DNA of 64,000 nucleotides from Physcia stellaris. Its lineage: Eukaryota; Ascomycota; Lecanoromycetes; Caliciales; Physciaceae. The translations under genes and the position numbers were made by a program. The notes under the pieces are model-generated. The model made no database searches and was not told the origin of the DNA. It was given only the letters and a program-made list of their open reading frames with translations. This document shows, in pieces, positions 52,150-64,000 of the stretch; within the stretch, counting starts at the first letter, position 1; every line of letters starts with the position of its first letter. The stretch covers positions 62,001 through 126,000 of the forward strand of contig JABSSW010000061.1 in NCBI GenBank assembly GCA_018902385.1, read 5' to 3'.

Positions 52150-52630
52150 AGGGCATGTCGGCTATTATCGCATTGGTAGCTCTAATCATAATTACGGGGG
52201 GATCTTATGTTGCTTGATAGCAAGTCATTGGGGACTGAGCATTGGGAAGGGAATTGTACATTATATTTCTGCCTTGGCGTTGCTGGCTTTCGGGCGGGGG
52301 CTTTTTGGACACCTGCTCATGGGCAGCGGCGATGGCTTTGGCTGGTTGATTGATAGATACCCTTCTTGTTATTAGATGGCATTGAAATTTAGATGACATA
52401 TATCGAAACCCTGCCTTTTCCAAGCTGAAATACAGAAAAGAAATCTGAGGATTCGTTGTGGATGAGGTACGGTACCCTTGAATATGTCCCGACCAATGCC
52501 ATTATCAATCTTGCATACCATTGACGGTACCTTCCAGTCCTACATACTTTCATGAACCATTGATGAAAGATCATAGCAGAAGGAAAAAAAGTTTACCTCG
52601 GATGAAAAGGGCAAAACGAAAATTATTTTG
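52150..52630. other. Intergenic region before the tRNA
   Basis: 3' flank of the 14-3-3-like gene. On the minus strand a TTTT run lies just downstream of the tRNA, suitable as a Pol III terminator (about 52614-52624). Confidence 0.5.
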
Positions 52631-52711
52631 CGTCATCGAGAGGACTCGAACCTCTGCCTCCGAAGAGATTTGATTTCTAGTCAAACGCCTTAACCACTCG
52701 GCCACAATGAC
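52631..52711 (-). tRNA. tRNA-Ser(AGA)
   Basis: The minus strand folds as a class II tRNA. The acceptor stem GTCATTG pairs with CGATGAC before a G discriminator. The A box TGGCCGAGTGG and B box GGTTCGAGTCC are intact. The anticodon stem TTTGA/TCAAA closes the loop CTAGAAA, giving anticodon AGA. A long variable arm (CTCTTCGGAG) is typical of tRNA-Ser. There is no intron. The gene sits at the very edge of the AT-rich mutated block. Confidence 0.95.
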
Positions 52712-52869
52712 GTCCAGGATATCTTGTCACCAAATTGCCCAAAATGGTAATACAATTGTTGTCAAATGTCTTGAAAGTTGTTTCGGAAAGTTGCAGATCA
52801 ATTTCTTTCATTCGATTTTTGCACTTTATGAGATGAAAAAATGACATAGATTAGCTCTTAGCGCATCAC

Positions 52870-55800
52870 TTCATCAATAAAAAACTCAATAATGTCAAAT
52901 AAGCGTGAAAAACACAAACATGTTTGTCATTTTTTGCATTGTGATTACATAGCAAACAGACATGTTTATGCAATGTCTTCGTGTTATTGTATTCAAGCAA
53001 ACACTCATTGTAAAAAATTTTTGACATTCAAAGTTTTTGTCAATCATTGAAATGAAATCATTCATCATGTTTTCGACATCAAAAAAACATTATGTGAAAT
53101 TCACAAAAAATGCAGTGATTTATTTAGTTGAAATCAAAATTTGTCAATTGAAAATTGAAACACACAGAAATTTTTGCGATTTTCGAAAAAAAAAATCAAT
53201 GATTGTGAATTATTCATGAAATCGAAATTGTCAGAAATGTTTGTCACAAACAGATTGTTCAGTTTACAAGAAAATTTTGTCAACAAAAAAAACAATGTCG
53301 TGATTTTAGAAATAAAGAATTTGTCGTCAAGAATTGATGAAAAAATCAACGTTTATTGATCATGTAACATTATCATTGATCAAATCAAAATTGCTCAAAT
53401 TTTCATCTTGATTTCAATTGCAAAGTCAAATTATATTGTTTTTATTTTTGTTTTTTATTTTCACGACAAGAAAACGATGATTTATTTGAACACAATTGAA
53501 AATTTTGATGCGACGTTTTGATCAATTCGAACAGTTTGAACAATGCATTCATTGTTCGCATTTTTTTTGAAATTATTTTTTTGCATGTTGTCGTTGAAAA
53601 AAATTAAAATTGTTTTATCGAATTTTTATGCTTTTGTTTTTGAAAACATTGATTGTTGATATGTCGATTTTTGATTATTCGACAAATTTTTAACATTTCG
53701 CAAATTCAATGAACATACGAATGTTATTTATCATGTATCACGTTCACAACGTTTTTCATTATCGATTTTAATGTTCAACTTTGAATCGTGACAAAAAGTT
53801 TTGAAATTGATTCATTTCATATATTTCAATTTTCAAAAACACTTTTTCATTTGAAAATTGAAACTTTTTTCGATGTGTTCGATATTTGATGATTTTAAAT
53901 TGATTCATCGTAATGATGACAACATGATTTATGTGAAAATTAAAAAACGTCATTGCAAAATGAAATACAACGACAAAAAAAAAATTTGTCGCATGCAACA
54001 TTATCAAAAAACAATGAATTTCACAAAACGACAAATGTTTAATTGAAAATTCTCTTGAAATTTCATTTGAATTATCATTGACGAAAAAAATCAAACATTT
54101 TTTTTGTCACGAAACATTATTTTTCGAAATTGATGAAATGTTTTTTTATCATTTAGCGAAAAAAATATATACAATTTGAAATGATTCACGAATAAAATCG
54201 TCATGTTGAAAAAATACATGATCAATCGAACAAAATCAAATCGATTAATCGACGACATGAAACATATTTTGTCACATACAATGATCAATCAAGATTTTTA
54301 TAAAACGCGCACAAAAATATTTATCGAAAAATTGTTCATTGATTCAAATATTGAATTCAATTTTTTCGAAAAAACGAACATAATGAAAATTTTTTCGATT
54401 TTCTCGAAAATCAAAAAGCATAATTCATACATCAAACAACATGTCTAATCATTTAATCGTTTTCGAAAAAATTTCGATTTCGTCGATCAACATCAAAATC
54501 GAAAAATTTTTTACGAAACATTCGCATCGAAAACAATAACAAAATTTTGTCGATTTACGTGAACAAATCATTTTTTGTTACGATTGTTTTTGTTGACATT
54601 CAAATAATGACAAATACATTGTATTCGATATAAATAAACGTAACAAAAAATATCGTTTTGTTTTATTGAAATATACGTGATCAAAATTGAAACAAATATA
54701 ATATAATCGAAACGACATTTTTTCAAAACAAATTTAACGTTTCGACAAGCGAATTTCAATCATTTTTTTTATTTTCGCAAAATCGAAAATTTTTAATATT
54801 TTATATTTCAAAAACATTAAAATCAACGAATATGCGAATGATTTGATCAAAAATCGTTTCGCGACATTTGTGATTATGAATTTATTTTTTTTCAATTGTC
54901 AACGATTGAAACATGATCGTTGTATTTTTTCGTTTATCGAGTTGTCATTGTCAATGCGTGTTCACAAATATGTGCATTTCATTAACGATGACATTTTGAA
55001 TCAATATTTTGTTGATGAAAATAAATTGATAAAAATCATTTGAAATTTGATCGATGATGTTGAAAACAATACACAAATTGTTGTGAATTCAAAAAAAATC
55101 ATGATCGATATGAGCGATTATTGTTGATTCATTCAAAATGTTTTAAAAACAAACGTTGATCAAATAATCGATTTCGACAATGATAAAAATGATTCGACTT
55201 AACAACGATAATTAAAAAAATGAAAAAACGTGTATTTCGAAAACGAAATTCATGCTAAATTAAATTATTGAATAAAAGTTGAAATTTTCATGATGACATT
55301 ACAAAATTTCGAAAATCGATGTGAAACAAACAAACGCATTAATTCATAAATTACAGAATTTCAAATTTGTTTTTGAATCATCAATTTGATGAATAACGTA
55401 TTCAATCATTTGTTAATTATGATTTTGCACGTGACAATTTCAATCGTCGAAAAACGACGAATTACGTTGTTGAACGAATAAAACATTTTGTTTTTACAGA
55501 ATTTAACGACATGAATCGTGATTTTGCGAATTTTAAATTTGTCGTTTTTCATGAATGTGCAAATATTGATGAACGTTGTTCAAAAATATTTTATCATTTT
55601 GATCGTTATTATGATTTTGACATTTATCAATGTTTGAAATGATTGTCGAATTCAAAATTTGAACAATGCATTTTCGAATTTCATCAATTCGTATATGAAA
55701 TTTTTCAATTTCATCAACGATTTGAATTTTTTTTCGAAAAACATGTTTCAAAATTTTTCGATTATCGTTTGAACAATTGACAATGTCGAATCACGAAATA

Positions 55801-57105
55801 TTTTTTTGTTAATCAAAAATCATGTTTTTTTAAAATGTTTCAATGATCAATTTTCATGTTCAATTTCAAAATGATTTTTTTGCATACGTGAACATCAATC
55901 AAAATAGATTTGAAACATAATAATCAAAAACGTTTTGCATTCAATATGTTTTTCGTTAAATCGATTCAAACGTATCGATTTTTGATTGTTGTTTAATAAT
56001 TTGAATTACGATTTTGTTTCATTCAAAAATCATTCATTTTTTTTTTCGATTCGTATGTCAAATTCAAAAACATGATTTTTTTTTTTTTCGAATTGCATCA
56101 TTGCGAACGTTCAATAGCAAAAAACGATCTGAATGAACATGAATTAATTTGAAAGTTTGCAAAAATAATTTACAAAAACGTGAAAAAAAAAAGCAAACAA
56201 ATTTATCATGATAAAAAACAAACGTTTGAAACGAAAAACATCGAAAAATTTATCAAAATGTTTCATTTTTTTTCATGATCGTTGATTTTTCTTGTTTCAA
56301 ACGTAAAATACGTAAACAAACTTAAATAATCGAAAAAAATTATAAACAATGTTTTTTTTTGTTTTATTATCAACATTTTCGATGTGAATTCTGATAAACT
56401 TTTCGAACATCGAGAAATAATAAATTTAAAATGTCAATCAGCAAATAAATTTGAAATTTATTAATCGATCACGTATTTTGTTTATTTTCAATTCACAACA
56501 AATTTTCGTCAATTCAAACGCGATCAAATATTTAATTTTCAATATTTGAATGATTCATTTAAAATCGATTTTGAAATTCAATTCATCATTCGAATTCGTG
56601 TTCAAATAAATATTTTTTGTGATGAACAGATTTCGCAAACTCGTAATGTTTGTGATTTTTTCATTTTCATTTTTCATGATATCGTGTTTTAAAATGAAAC
56701 AATATTGATTAACGACATTGTTATCGAAAATAAACACGCGTTTGTTTTGATATTTTCAAATGTGAAAATCGTTTCGAAAATTCGAATCAAAACGAATTTG
56801 CACAAAACAAACAAAAACGACAACAAACGTCGAAAATAAATATTTTGATAATATGCGTTTCAACAGCATTCGATTTCTTCGTCGTCACGAAACGTCATGA
56901 TGAATGTGATTGTCGTTTCATGACGATAACATAAAAAAACATAACGAAAAATAAAAACATCAATTCGAAAACGACAAATCGATTCACGTTGAAAACGAAA
57001 TGTTGTGTCGAAATCATGTGCAATCGATCATTTGACAAATGTCGATTGTCAACGATGTGAATGAAAAACGATAAAATGCGTCAAATTTCGAAAAAATGAT
57101 TATAT
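52870..57105. other. AT-rich, heavily C-to-T mutated repeat-derived block (left part)
   Basis: After a short transition the sequence becomes extremely AT-rich. In a hand count of 54181-54480, 45 cytosines are followed by A (27), G (16), T (2) and C (0), and TA occurs only about 17 times. Open frames exist on both strands but contain no Gly, Pro or Trp and no family I can identify. This is almost certainly one or more transposons altered by a RIP-like process. Which element cannot be told from the sequence by eye. Confidence 0.85.
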
Positions 57106-57316
57106 TGTAAACACGCAATTTATTGAACGAATGTGAGTGACTGTCATTGCATTACATGCAATACTACCGAAATTACGTACAGAAATAAATACAATTTGAT
57201 TGCGCAAGTGTCTCTAATAATGATCGATTTTGACACGTTTCGTTTAGTCGATCAATCAAAAATTCTGATCTTATTCGTGTTCATATTTCAGTCTCTTGTC
57301 ATCGTACTTTTCAACA
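57106..57316 (-). repeat. 3' LTR of the copia element (211 bp)
   Basis: Bounded by TG...CA on the plus strand. From 57117 it aligns without gaps over 200 bp to the other LTR (from 62566). It is the less mutated copy at several sites and retains words such as CTCTAATAATG and CAGTCTCTTG. Confidence 0.85.
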
Positions 57317-57658
57317 TTTTCACTCGATGACAATCATGCTCATTGCACTCGTGAATGCGATTCTCATTGAGTTTCAATTTTTGCATTGATTGTGATTTTC
57401 ATTGAGTGCTAATTCGTGCAGCGACGTAACTTTTACTAAATTCGAATTTTCTTAATCATTGACGAGAGAAACATTGACTCTTTTTGATCAAAGAATTAGA
57501 CTCGAACGACTTCAGAGAAAATCATTTTGAATCATCATGCAATTCGAGTTTGAGCACGATCAACGAACTTCTGTTTTCGATCATGACTCGTCAGATGTGT
57601 ACGATTGAATCATCAGCACGTTAACATAAAAAAAACAATTTTAATTATTGAAAAAAAT

Positions 57659-57913
57659 CTAATTGATTTTCAATTTTTTCAATTTCAATTGCTTCACGAA
57701 TTTTTTGAATTTATTTTTTGACAATAATTTAATCAAATCATCGATTATCATGTTTGCATTTGAAACGTAATTCAATTGAATTAAATTTTTTTGATGCAAA
57801 TTTTTAATGTTGTAATAAATCATATCAATGTGTTTTGATCGTTCATGAATATGTGCGTTTTTGATCAACAAATTAACGATTTGATTATTTTTCAAAATTG
57901 CATTGATGAACAA
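57659..57913 (-). pseudogene. Copia polyprotein, C-terminal segment
   Basis: The 84-codon frame reads LLIKNAHIHERSKHIDMIYY and NLIQLNYVSNANMIIDDLIK, which match the end of fungal copia polyproteins (the ...RSKHIDIRYH... and ...DMLTKPL... region). Gly and Pro of the consensus are replaced, consistent with C-to-T and G-to-A change. Confidence 0.8.
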
Positions 57914-58090
57914 ACTTCATGTTTATCGTTTTGAATGATTGTTATTTGATTCAGTTCGATTTCAAAATATTTGATGAAATTCAAATCACGAAAAAACTGT
58001 GCTATTCATAGTTTTTTTAACACATGTCGATAAAATCGTATATTCAATTTCAATGATTGAAATAGCGATCGATTTTTGTTTACGACTCAT

Positions 58091-58597
58091 TCATGATATT
58101 GATTTTTCAGCGAACATGTAAACGTATTCGAAAATCGATTTTTTGTTCAATTTATCGATTGCATAATCAAAATTCGAATAAATTTTGATTTTGAAATTTT
58201 CATTGTTGTTCAATTTCAAATCGTATACAAAATTTAAATCGATGATCGATCGAATGTAACGAAACAAAATTTTCATTGTTTTATCGTGATGTTTCGCAAA
58301 ATCATTGAAATATTGATTTAATCGTTTTAATGCGAAAACGATATTTGAACGAATGTGTATGACAACATACATGAATTTTTCAATTTTGTGTTGATAATTT
58401 TTTGAATCAATTCGCTCGTCGTTCGATTCAGTTGATTTGAGTGAATCGTAATCGTTCATGAATAATTTCGTACGTTCGTGTTTATCGATATTCATATGCA
58501 ATTCATTCAATATTTCGCTCAAATAATGAATTTGATTCAATCGAATAATTCGTCTTTTACGATCGCGAGTGATTTTAATGTCAAAAATCTTTTTCAT
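58091..58597 (-). pseudogene. Copia reverse transcriptase end and RNase H
   Basis: The frame shows IKITRDRKRRIIRLNQIHYL (connection region), then IVFALKRLNQYFNDFAKHH and KILFRYIRSIIDLNFVYD, then the RNase H start YSNFDYAIDKLNKKSIFEYV. These are standard copia landmarks. Gln codons are kept while Gly, Pro and Trp are absent. Confidence 0.88.
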
Positions 58598-58798
58598 TTT
58601 TTTCAGATTTTTGACTTTGAATATTTTTTTGAATTCATTTTTGAATCAATTGATTTGCTCGTTGAATTTGACGACAACAAAAATGTCGTTCACGTAAAAA
58701 AGCAATATGATTTCTCGTTTTTTATGACGAAACATGCAGAAGTCAGTCGAAATCTGTTCAAAATTCAATTTATACAATTTTTTCACATAACGTTCGTG

Positions 58799-59110
58799 TC
58801 AATTTCTAATTGCTTGCTTCAATTCATAAAGATTTCGACGAATCAGAAATGCTTGTTCAGAAAATAAATTCACGTCGAATGACGATTTCATGTAAATTAT
58901 TTTCTTTAAAAACGACTTCGTGAAAACATTGTTGACGTTCATTTGATGACATTCGAAATTCTTCAACGCAACGATGACAAAAAACAGACGAAAAATATCG
59001 AATTTGACAATTGAAACAAAAATATCTGTATAGTCGACTTCATACATTTGCGAAAAATCTTTTGTCACGAGTCTGATTTTTAATTTGTTCAATGTATCAT
59101 TCACATGCAT
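58799..59110 (-). pseudogene. Copia reverse transcriptase, N-terminal half
   Basis: Landmarks: RLVTKDFSQMYEVDYTDIF (consensus ARLVAKGFSQ...DY.ETFAP), LRLFF-like FRLFFVIVALKNFECHQMN (consensus ...QMDVKTAFLNG...) and IYMKSS. Substitutions such as G to D, A to T/V, P to S and D to N are those expected from C-to-T and G-to-A change. Confidence 0.9.
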
Positions 59111-59338
59111 TTTGATTTTGAATATTCATTTATTGATGACGATATTGACGTTCTTCGATGAAATGACGACGTCTCAAATCTCATTGATTATTAACGTCGT
59201 CAATTCGATCTGAATGATTTCAAGTCAGAGTTTGTTTCAAATAAAATCATTGACGACCTTCTGATAGTTCTCGAATACAAATATGATTAGCTTTTCAACG
59301 AATTGTCGATTTGTCTTTTTTGTTGTTGCAAACAAAAT

Positions 59339-59824
59339 TCATTCGTCATGCTCACACGTATCGAAATTTTCGATCAAAAAAATCATCATAACGCGTGCAA
59401 TTTTGTTACGATGTTCATCTCGCTTTTTTTCATTCGTGATATCTCGTTTGCGCTTGAAAATTGTCACGTGAAAAAATTGCTGTATCATGCGTGAAAATTT
59501 GATAAAAAATGCTAATTTAACGCGCGTTTGAATTGTCGATTTTGTCGTAAATTCGTTGATTTCATTTTTTTCATTCGATGTATCGATAAATTTATCGTTT
59601 TTTTTCATGTGCATTGATTGAATTTTTTTTTGTTTTTCGAAATCATAAACGCAATAAAAATCGAAGATTTCGCAAAAATTGATGCAACAAATGTTGATGT
59701 AAACGTCGATGTCATCGAAACGATTGCAAATGCAAAAATTATTTTGCGTGATTTTTCGACAAATCGTTTTTCGAGTAATTCGTTCATTGTAATCGTGAAC
59801 AGATTCAAAAACTCGTTTTTTCAT
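59339..59824 (-). pseudogene. Copia linker between integrase and reverse transcriptase
   Basis: A 161-codon frame in the position of the variable, charged linker of copia polyproteins. It has no recognisable domain and no Gly, Pro or Trp. Assigned by position only. Confidence 0.55.
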
Positions 59825-60179
59825 TTTTCACGTTCAAAAACACTATTTTGTGATGCTTGATAACATCACGACGATCGAGAACTCATATTTTGTATTAAAT
59901 CGTGATGTTTTCGTCATAACTCATAAACACGTCTGATTTTTTTGTATTGACGAATTTATTCTTTCTACTTTTTTTCAAACAATGATTTGATATCAACGAA
60001 CGAATAGCATTTGCATTTTCAAACGCGTATGTGATTTATTGACGATTTAATATTTGTTCAGATTTCAATAAAATTTGTTCAATTGTCGTCAATTACTGAT
60101 TTCGTGTTCATACGATTGCGAACATATGCATTTGTTTTTTCTGTTTCAAATCAAAATTCTATAAACAGTTTTGCATTCT

Positions 60180-61177
60180 GAATCATTGTTCGAATTTGAT
60201 TTTCGATCGTTTTTATGACACGCTCTACTACGTCATTCTGAATGAAATTATACGAGACGATGTACTGTGAAACAATGTCGATAAATTCGCATCAAAAATC
60301 GAATATAAATTTCAATTCTTTGACGTTGTCACAACGTATTGTTTGTAATTTTCGCTGAGTTTCTAATTTCACTTTCAATTTTCATTTGTTGAAAACTTTT
60401 GATGCATCGATTCGTTTGCGAAAAATAGAATTCACGTTCGTCGAGAGTGATTATTCACGATTTCTAAAAATATTCGTAGTCGAGTTTTGAAACGAATAAA
60501 AATTCACAAATATCGATAAATATCAACTTCAATATGTGAGTTTTGCGTTCGATTAAACGACGATTATATGCATTAATCATTTTCGTAATCGCACATATTT
60601 TGCATAAATCGTTGCGATTTTCAACAATGAATATTGATTTGTGTAAAGTTGTGATTTTGTGCAAATTTCGAAGTTTTGCAAACTTTATATAATCAAAACG
60701 TCGATATTATAATTCGTATAAATCACGTTTCTTTTGATCAACATTTGAGTCGATACTTGAATCAACATTCGATGACTGAAAATCGATTTCGATATCATTT
60801 CGAAAATCAATATTTGCATCGAACAAGATTTCGTTCGAGTTCACGATTGTTGACATAGCAAATGAAACAAACAAAATTTTAAAAAATTCAATTGCAAACA
60901 TCGTGTTGCTCGCTAACAATGCGTACTTTTTAAATTTTGATGTGATTTTGTCTATTATGTAAACATTTTTTTGAACGAATGCTCGAAATACTTCAACGTT
61001 TTGTTTATTGCGCATGAACAAACTATCGTCATTGAAATTTTCTATCAAATTCTTTTTGATAAAGTGTTTGTCGAATAGAAAATTGACGTCGAAATCAAAT
61101 ACATAAAACACTTTCGTCAACGTGTTTTCATCATTTTTGACGCGCATCGTCATTGAATCACATTGATTTGAATACAA
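60180..61177 (-). pseudogene. Copia protease-adjacent region, GAG-pre-integrase and integrase core
   Basis: The right part (61177-60707) encodes a segment with VFYVFDFDVNFLFDKHF, comparable to the region after the aspartic protease. Next comes LHKITTLHKS-like DNA with a CKICAITK zinc-like pair and ILKLIFIDICEFL, the start of the integrase core. Toward 60180 the reading QTIRCDN and SYNFIQNDVVERVIKTIENQ matches the second Asp and the Glu of the DDE core. Frames are broken in between. Confidence 0.75.
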
Positions 61178-61509
61178 TTTTTTTTTTTTTCGATTTTGAT
61201 CGTGCGTCTTTTAATCGATTTAAAAATTCATTAAAAAATCGAAAATCGTCAATCATGTGTGACGAAACGTCGATATTTGCAATTCATACGAATTTGAAAA
61301 ATTTATTGATCAACTTTTTTGACAAAACGACGATTTTTTCATGTCGTTTTCATTGTTTGAGTCGATGTCGATGTCGAAACTGAAATTGCTGCTAAACGAA
61401 AAAAAAAATTTGCGACGTTGTACGCTTTATGCTTTTTTGTTTTTACTTTTATTCTTGATTGTAAACAACTTTTTGATTTGTTGTTTTTTTGTTCATTTTT
61501 TTAGTGTTT

Positions 61510-61953
61510 TCAAAAATTGCATTCGACGATTTTGTGTGAATCGTCAAAAAAACAACTTTTAGTTTTTTTCGTCATGATTTTGAAACGACGACGAGAATTT
61601 TCATCAAAATTAAAAAATCGTCGTTGAAATATGCGATACGATTGACGACGATTGTTTTTGATTATCAATGTCGATTCGACGATTTTGTTCGCAATGAATT
61701 GTGTTTTTTTTTTTTGCAATTTTTGAATAAATTTATCGATATCGAAATTGTTTTGTTCGTCGATTGCATCACGAATGACATCGTATTCGACAAACAAAAA
61801 TGTTAAAAATGTTTGAAAACGACGTTTTGATTTGAACAAACTCGTTATGTCTGATTGCATGTTTGCAATTTTGCGATTTTTTTTGATGATATCGATATAA
61901 ACGATTTCAATGATCACGTTTGAAAATTTTTTGTAATTCATAAACTTTTGCAA
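61510..61953 (-). pseudogene. Copia gag-like segment
   Basis: A 147-codon frame in the gag position, including LPxx-like FLTFLFVEYDVIRDAIDEQN and a basic, Arg-rich end (RRQSYRIFQRRFF). No Gly, Pro or Trp. Assigned by position and general resemblance. Confidence 0.6.
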
Positions 61954-62547
61954 ATATTGCTTTTCAATTGTAGCAAACTTTTGTTTGTATTTGTTGACAA
62001 AAACTTTTCAAATCTTTTTGACAATTTTCAATTTCGTCATCAATTTTTGATCATCGTCATCGATACATTCGATAAATTGATATTGTGTTTTTGCGTCGAA
62101 TTTTTTTTCAATGTTTTTTTCATCAAAGTTCAAATCGACGTCTCAATTTGATTTTCGAAAATCATTCGACAACAATTTCGACACATAATTTGAATCGACG
62201 ATCATTCAAATTTTTCGTCGATGAGTCATTGTTTCATTAACTTGAATCATTTCTCGCAATTTTGACGAGTAAAAATATCACAAACTCGACGCGCGTTGAA
62301 TTTGTTGAACTCGAAATCGTTCATGATGCGTGATATGATATGTAAATACGTAAATTTTTTCTATTTGTTGTATTGCGTGAAACATTTTCACAATCGTTCG
62401 TTCACTCGTTGAATTGATGATCGAATTCGAATATGTAAAGCATTTTTACAATTTTGACGCGATTGAATCGATGAAACATCTTCATTGTTGTTTGATTTTC
62501 GTGATCTCGTGATCGAGCGATTGACGCTGACAATTACAAAAAATTTA

Positions 62548-62765
62548 TGTTAATTCGAATCTCATAATTTATTGAACGAATGTGGATGACTGTCATTGCA
62601 TTACATGCAATATTATCGAAATTACGTATAGAAATAAATACAATTTGATTGCGCAAATGTTTTTAGTAGTGATCGATTTTGACACGTTTCGTTTAGTCGA
62701 TCAATCAGAAATTTTGATTTTATTCGTGCTCATATTTCAATTTTTTGCCATCGTACTTTTCAACA
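62548..62765 (-). repeat. 5' LTR of the copia element (218 bp)
   Basis: Aligns without gaps over 200 bp with the LTR at 57117-57316. There are 18 differences, all transitions. Its left end, outside the aligned part, is more diverged and slightly longer. Confidence 0.85.
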
Positions 62766-64000
62766 CAATTCGACATTAATCGATAATCAAAATTCGTTGA
62801 ATTCAAACATCATTTGACATCAATCAAAATTTTTTCATTTTTTTTCTGAAACATATTGTTTTTACAATAAAATTTTTTGTCATTTAAAAAATTTTTTCAT
62901 TAAATGTTTTTCATGAATCGCATGAAATCGTATCGACACAAATTCAAATTGATCAATCACAATAATTTGCAAAAATCATTAAACGCAACAAAATTTCAAA
63001 ACGTGATTTTCAAATTTATGAAAAATGTACGAAACAATGTATGATCGATTGAAAAAAAAAAAATTTTGATGAATGATTTTTGCGATTATGTCAAATATGA
63101 AAAAATTTGACATTTAATTCAAATGATCGTTTCAAAATTTCGTTTGACATTAAAAAAGCAATAAATATTTTTCATAAAAGTCATAAAAATCAAATTTGAA
63201 TTTGATATGTATGCAAACATTTGAAAAATGTTTCGAAAAAAAAAAATGTTTGTTTCAAATACGTATTTCAAAATGTTGTCAATTTTTTGTCATCATCACG
63301 ATGTGATTTCAGCGATCGAAATGTTTTGTCGACGAAAATAAACATGATTCGTGAAAAACATAAACATTTGATCGAATATTTTGTATCAAAAAACAAATCG
63401 AAATTTGAAATCACAATCGAGAAAAAATCGAAAATTCAATCGCGTCTCGTCGCAATGAAAAAAATTTTATATCGTACGTTTGTCGTACAAAAATTGATTC
63501 GTTTTAAAATTCAAATTAATTGTGTACAATTTCAAAATTTAAATAAACGCATGAATACATGTAAAATCATTCGACAATGCGAATTTAATGTCACTTTAAT
63601 GAAACGATCGAAATGACACGAAAAATTAAAAAAAATATGTTTGATTTTATCAAATACATGTAAGCAAACAAATGACATTATTTTAATGATATTTTTCATA
63701 AACGTAAATTAGCGCAATTTTCGTTTTTTCGATATTTGAAATGTTTTGTCGATTTTTTTTTTTTGATCAATTCGTTTGCGTGTTTTTGTTTTTTCGTTGT
63801 CATTGAACAACATGTTTTTTTTGTCAATTTGAATTTTAATGTTATCGTCATTGATAACATCATCGTCGAGATCGTGTGAAATACGACAAAAATCAAATAA
63901 CGTCATAATTAACATGAAATCGAAAAAAAAATCGTGAAATGTTGTTTGTTCATGTTGTGTTGTTGTATCAACTTTTTGATGCGTCGTGATTTTTTTTTGA
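62766..64000. other. AT-rich mutated block (right part, continues beyond window)
   Basis: Same composition as the left part: CC, GG, CT and AG are rare, poly-A/T is abundant. A 131-codon plus-strand frame (63221-63616) and minus frames near 63.7-63.9 kb are open but unrecognised. Probably another mutated transposon. Confidence 0.7.

Follow-up and report, generated by a model that had tools for sequence, protein, structure and literature searches.

What kind of process removes from a long stretch of fungal DNA nearly all cytosines that are followed by another pyrimidine, while leaving those followed by A or G mostly in place? The question is raised by the terminal part of a 64,000-nucleotide stretch of the genome of Physcia stellaris, a lichen-forming fungus of the family Physciaceae (Lecanoromycetes, Caliciales), which was analyzed at its full length and is denoted here the window (assembly GCA_018902385.1, contig JABSSW010000061.1, positions 62,001 to 126,000; coordinates on the entire contig are prefixed C61). 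This part encompasses a relic of a Ty1/copia long terminal repeat (LTR) retrotransposon and clearly carries a mutation spectrum that resembles repeat-induced point mutation (RIP) with a switched sequence context. The RIP of Neurospora crassa depends on RID and converts CpA to TpA; here, the mutated dinucleotides are CpC and CpT (jointly, CpY). Probably, the affected block is repeat DNA that was inactivated by a RIP-like defence with CpY instead of CpA as the target context. The block is delineated as follows.

52801 to 64000, no strand assigned: AT-rich block with CpC and GpG nearly absent and CpT and ApG strongly depleted, defined by GC content and dinucleotide counts; it extends beyond the window.

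The block is set off by a sharp edge, at about 52,800-53,000; from about 52,800 on, the GC content is 0.24-0.30 compared to 0.44-0.55 elsewhere in the window, and the depletion reaches at least C61:146,000, that is, at least 20 kb beyond the window end. Between positions 52,951 and 64,000, there are 3 CC, 1 GG, 161 CT and 121 AG dinucleotides, along with 762 CA, 808 TG and 572 CG. The ratios of the observed counts to those expected from base composition are 0.01 for CC, 0.00 for GG, 0.28 for CT and 0.23 for AG; for CA, TG, CG and TA, they are 1.47, 1.41, 2.81 and 0.37, respectively, in full accord with the original prediction, made from the sequence letters, that CA, TG and CG are retained and TA is low, the opposite of classical RIP. 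The longest run free of CC and GG spans 4,367 nucleotides in the block vs 96 nucleotides in the genic part of the window. The local counts behind that prediction were reproduced as well: in 54,181-54,480, the base after C is A 27 times, G 16 times, T twice and never C, exactly as reported, and TA is indeed scarce, albeit with 15 occurrences rather than about 17; in 55,500-55,750, where CT, AG, CC and GG had been described as essentially absent, each count is 0. In eleven 1-kb segments starting from 53,001, the standard RIP indices are 0.29-0.48 for TA/AT and 1.29-1.84 for (CA+TG)/(AC+GT); the raised TA/AT that results from CpA-to-TpA conversion is absent, so that the block would be scored as unmutated.

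The retrotransposon relic within the block consists of the following parts.

57104 to 62765, minus strand: Ty1/copia LTR retrotransposon relic, identified by a repeat family match and the RVT_2 domain.
57104 to 57316, no strand assigned: terminal repeat copy 1, 213 nucleotides, 89% identical to copy 2.
62553 to 62765, no strand assigned: terminal repeat copy 2, 213 nucleotides, 89% identical to copy 1.
57926 to 59842, minus strand: pol frame of 639 codons, none of them for Pro, Gly or Trp; 12 TGA, 0 TAA, 0 TAG.
58493 to 59185 (C61:120493-121185), minus strand: RVT_2 (PF07727) reverse transcriptase domain with 4 in-frame TGA, E-value 4.2e-30.

The element has 45 matches in its own genome, most of them 82-93% identical. 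With 24 of the 76 candidates scored, such that copy counts are lower bounds, the family counts at least 22 long members plus 4 shorter matching stretches, spread over many contigs; no unmutated copy was found among the 24 scored candidates. All 26 stretches of the family are mutated, with CC accounting for at most 0.9% and CT for 1-18% of the C dinucleotides, and the genes adjoining mutated blocks have normal composition, a restriction to repeats of the type seen in RIP, with two exceptions that are considered below (the copia copies L042-L044 and the segment 53,000-57,000). Of the 50 flanks of the family copies, 43 have at most 3.8% CC; the remaining 7, with normal or part-normal values of 14-28%, are where unmutated DNA starts.

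The direction and the context of the mutations come from C-to-T changes tabulated by the 3' base in three repeat families, namely, that of the window and those of L040 and L041. Across 22 aligned copies of the window family, the frequency of C/T differences per C-bearing site is 0.99 for CpC, 0.89 for CpT, 0.21 for CpA and 0.17 for CpG. L040, a related copia copy, has normal composition (GC 0.52, 270 CC, 240 CT). Compared to the 4 longest of its 5 other matches (a 175-base match was left out), C is replaced by T at 946 of 987 CpC, 780 of 890 CpT, 122 of 1058 CpA and 62 of 946 CpG sites, along with 44 C-to-A and 5 C-to-G changes. For L041, itself lightly mutated, the 3 best of 39 other matches were used. 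The cleanest pair, L041 and L049, shows C-to-T changes at 155/161 CpC, 143/233 CpT, 6/284 CpA and 0/216 CpG sites; 0 of 1,996 sites carry a transversion, and AT-to-GC changes amount to 10/1,102. The corresponding C-to-T values for the four contexts are 153/161, 149/232, 10/283 and 7/216 for L050, and 154/160, 188/231, 16/284 and 6/216 for L051. Overall, about 96% of CpC and, depending on the copy, 61-96% of CpT are lost, C before A or G is mostly kept, and CpC is about 3.5 times as strongly mutated as CpT (from the L049 fractions). The 5' base has no influence, either in the 22 aligned window-family copies or in the L040 comparison.

Copy by copy, identical contexts are affected on both strands; for example, CC is lost at 114/122 coding-strand and 137/140 template-strand sites of L045. 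In the window family, CpT is kept in at least one copy at 318 plus-strand and 240 minus-strand columns, mostly in 1-4 copies; the copies hold largely different sets of surviving CpT, which implies that each was mutated largely, not perfectly, independently. Thus, comparison with less-mutated relatives supports the original proposal that both strands underwent C-to-T mutation preferentially at cytosines with a pyrimidine on the 3' side. In none of the three families is CpA the predominant context of mutation, and the composition of the block was not seen in unmutated copies; where copies of related elements escaped mutation, their composition is normal. The C-to-T (G-to-A) transitions on both strands are those of RIP; the CpA preference of RIP is missing.

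The coding consequences of such mutation are distinctive. TGG turns into TGA because CCA on the template becomes TCA, and the codons for Pro, Gly and Trp, the only amino acids without a codon free of CC and GG, vanish. Across the genome, stops are present in 133 of 137 rows of RVT_2 matches (401 TGA, 101 TAA, 3 TAG; 150 of 165 matches listed) and in 140 of 150 rows of RVT_1 matches (250 TGA, 33 TAA, 3 TAG; 150 of 527 matches listed), so that TGA accounts for 651 of the 791 stops scored in these relics. Simulated CpY mutation of unmutated frames, with rates set by hand rather than fitted, yields fractions of 0.79 TGA, 0.20 TAA and 0.01 TAG, whereas simulated CpA mutation yields 0.003 TGA; the relics are broken mainly by TGA, with TAG rare, as predicted from CpY mutation. 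Four of the nine homologous proteins P0122-P0130 from other assemblies (P0123, P0127, P0128 and P0130) contain no Pro and no Gly but keep Trp, apparently because TGA was translated as Trp in gene prediction, which argues that the process is not limited to one assembly. In P0123, several Arg positions are taken by His, Cys or Trp, the changes that would result if CpG was a target as well; a different lichen might have yet another variant of the context.

Two further features lie at or near the block edge.

52630 to 52711, minus strand: tRNA-Ser(AGA) gene, unmutated, adjoining the sharp block edge.
52952 to 54445, plus strand: 498-codon frame with 0 TAA/TAG and 16 TGA, without a Pfam match, in a stretch without a long match in other parts of the genome.

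Among nine read-through frames from the remainder of the block and from the DNA downstream, the Pfam search assigned no family to 8 and gave one match below the cut-off; no relatives were found in viral contigs. In a small genome-wide composition sample (3 stretches of 2 kb), 2 stretches are AT-rich, with CC counts of 6 and 4. The stretch L039 (C1:1-8000) has CCCTAA-type telomere repeats at the contig start and, in its subtelomeric positions 501-1000, a block-like signature, with 1 CC vs 60 CG.

Which enzymes could be responsible? A search of the genome (43.97 Mb, 147 contigs) for cytosine C5-methyltransferases identified three genes, so that both RID- and DIM-2-type enzymes, which the original prediction suggested seeking, are present: L002, denoted DIM-2-like by motif resemblance (DIFCGGGS, SPCQGFS, LLENV, SRTRIF and GNSV in one frame), and two RID genes, denoted C5 and C6 after their contigs. 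In the tree, C5 falls among the ordinary RIDs, and it retains the motifs including the conserved His site, with SDAHT where most RIDs have SPAHT. The C6 protein also contains the methyltransferase motifs F.G.GG, PPCQ, E[EQ]T, Q.RRR and IGNA by motif scan, and belongs, together with Heterodermia, to a separate 39-row clade with a long stem among the RID hits (SH-aLRT 100) in a quick tree that was midpoint-rooted for drawing and in which 33 of the 109 inner branches are open. It lacks the SPAHT His typical of the RID family: five residues after PCQ, Gln is invariant in the C6 clade (39 of 39), whereas His is found in 66 of 73 other RIDs and in 118 of 118 further RIDs. Structure prediction for P0008, the relative from Heterodermia, gave a confident methyltransferase fold (pLDDT 84.7) that matches plant MET1, DNMT1 and DIM-2. 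Heterodermia aff. obscurata has both RID types (P0008 and P0141); there is a hint that Dirinaria, Pseudocyphellaria and Usnea have the ordinary type only, among the matches listed (120 of 131 and 120 of 527 hits). By analogy with C5-methyltransferases in general, the loop after PCQ may select the neighbouring base; the divergent C6 paralog is the prime, if unproven, suspect for the CpY context.

Taken together, these observations are best explained by a RIP-like defence directed at CpY. Cytosines followed by C or T were converted to T on both strands, each repeat copy being struck largely separately; the process would be enzymatic and repeat-directed, and might be timed around the sexual cycle, as RIP is in Neurospora. 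The executor would be a RID-family protein, putatively the C6 paralog with its lineage-wide Gln near PCQ, and DIM-2 may contribute. The more specific scenario, that the Physciaceae evolved a second RID in which a His-to-Gln change in the catalytic loop re-aimed RIP from CpA to CpY, we consider tentative, with a chance somewhat below even.

Several observations weigh against this explanation. First, three copia copies that are 91-98% identical to each other, L042-L044, have normal composition, with C/T differences that show no context bias, that is, they are multi-copy yet unmutated, in contrast to most of their relatives in the genome, which are destroyed. These copies, which contain long open frames, are located as follows.

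C8:902300-903200, C42:398540-399400 and C7:889850-890650, no strand assigned: copia copies L042-L044, with long open frames.

Similarly, 10 of 150 RVT_1 rows and 4 of 137 RVT_2 rows are free of stops. Thus, either the defence is incomplete or the escaping insertions are recent or otherwise protected. Second, the segment 53,000-57,000 is as free of CC as the repeats, with no second copy detected by a search that skips common words; it may be older repeat DNA, or mutation may have spread from the repeats. Third, the oldest-looking copy, L048 (C15:145503-147025), has also lost 27% of CpA vs 6-10% in three relatives, so that CpA is not wholly immune, or else other decay follows. Fourth, surviving plus-strand CpT are shared between copies 1.33 times as often as expected by chance (1058 observed vs 796 expected). 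Finally, the link between the C6 protein and the spectrum is co-occurrence in one genome, and catalysis by RID has not been detected in vitro (PMC13297926; here and below, papers are cited to the extent of their accessible text).

The alternative that fares best retains a RIP-like process but attributes the CpY context to the ordinary C5 RID or to DIM-2 acting together with heterochromatin, rather than to a divergent RID. The motifs kept in the C5 protein, its SDAHT variant and a DIM-2-like protein that is intact by motifs are all compatible with this possibility, and the sites that DIM-2 methylates in Neurospora are mainly non-CG, with a CpT preference (PMC13297926). However, in the L040 and L041 comparisons, CpC is more strongly mutated than CpT, the accessible text of the same paper does not attribute to DIM-2 a near-complete avoidance of CpA, and the C5 RID retains the conserved His; we deem this alternative rather unlikely. 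Slow decay, whereby methylated CpC and CpT in silenced repeats would be lost to spontaneous deamination over a long time, also predicts strand-symmetric C-to-T changes restricted to silenced DNA and could draw on the DIM-2-type gene. The extra mutability of 5-methylcytosine is approximately tenfold. This effect is too small for the 298 CpY C-to-T changes that separate L049 from L041, against the lack of transversions and the few AT-to-GC changes in the same pair, a pattern that resembles a burst; slow decay is accordingly improbable.

Editing of retroelement cDNA by a single-strand cytidine deaminase would also produce context-specific C-to-T changes in retroelements, but both strands are equally mutated within single copies and the sequence flanking the element is mutated too, so we reject it as very improbable; a search of the genome for APOBEC_N gave no match, and neither did the controls, which makes the search uninformative. 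A sequencing or assembly artefact, such as miscalled methylated C in nanopore reads, which were used along with Illumina reads for the published assembly (PMC7513301), is rejected with near certainty given that the stops follow codon frames, being TGA in frame with hardly any TAA or TAG, that the Pro- and Gly-free proteins come from other assemblies, and that stretches without a second copy are also affected. Ordinary CpA RIP, or natural AT-rich composition without mutation, despite AT-rich repeat islands being typical of RIP genomes, is virtually impossible for the families tabulated because CpA is spared, TA is depleted and less-mutated relatives have normal composition.

A defence directed at CpY would share much with known systems. 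As in the RIP of N. crassa, C-to-T changes affect both strands of repeats to saturation, genes are spared, the AT-rich islands have sharp edges, and genes for RID and a DIM-2-like enzyme are present; unlike in N. crassa, CpC and CpT are mutated whereas CpA and CpG are spared, TA falls rather than rises, and the stops are TGA rather than TAG or TAA. RIPCAL (PMC2621366) and Amselem 2015 (PMC4352252) list CpA, CpT and CpG signatures. Botrytis, Sclerotinia and Magnaporthe, with RIP-like CpT-plus-CpA signatures (PMC4352252), resemble Physcia in the targeting of CpT and the presence of a RID/Masc1-type gene, but CpT is mutated there beside CpA and CpC is not listed, whereas here CpC leads and CpA is spared. 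The CpG-biased signatures of Microbotryum and Tuber (PMC2621366, PMC4352252) likewise consist of C-to-T changes in transposons, but CpG is the best-spared context in Physcia (L041 vs L049). Strong RIP has been reported in another lichen fungus, Cladonia rangiformis, which also has large, sharp-edged AT-rich islands of transposable elements (TE) and homologs of RID and DIM-2, although the TE GC peak is about 16% there vs 24-30% here (PMC12542154); no analysis of base context was found in the accessible text of that paper, in which 'dinucleotide' and 'CpA' occur 0 times. A survey covering 1,239 fungi concluded that a preference for CpA is common to RIP-like defences; no Lecanoromycetes are named among the 130 strongly RIP-positive species in its accessible text (Badet and Croll 2025, PMC12543289). 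In the accessible main text of the Physcia stellaris genome paper, 'RIP' and 'repeat-induced' are absent (PMC7513301), and no CpC-led, CpA-sparing signature was found in the open literature searched, a scope outside which Clutterbuck's 2011 survey falls.

The field has yet to establish by what means RIP selects a cytosine and if the mutator is RID itself; a direct test would come from a fungus in which CpA has naturally given way to CpY and an ordinary RID stands beside a divergent one with a clade-wide loop change. The context being nearly opposite to that in other fungi, surveys based on TA/AT and CpA indices would miss such a defence and can rate heavily mutated genomes as RIP-negative. If the scenario of a re-aimed second RID holds, the Physciaceae would possess a defence of the genome that introduces TGA stops, removes the codons for Pro, Gly and Trp, and is invisible to the current RIP indices.

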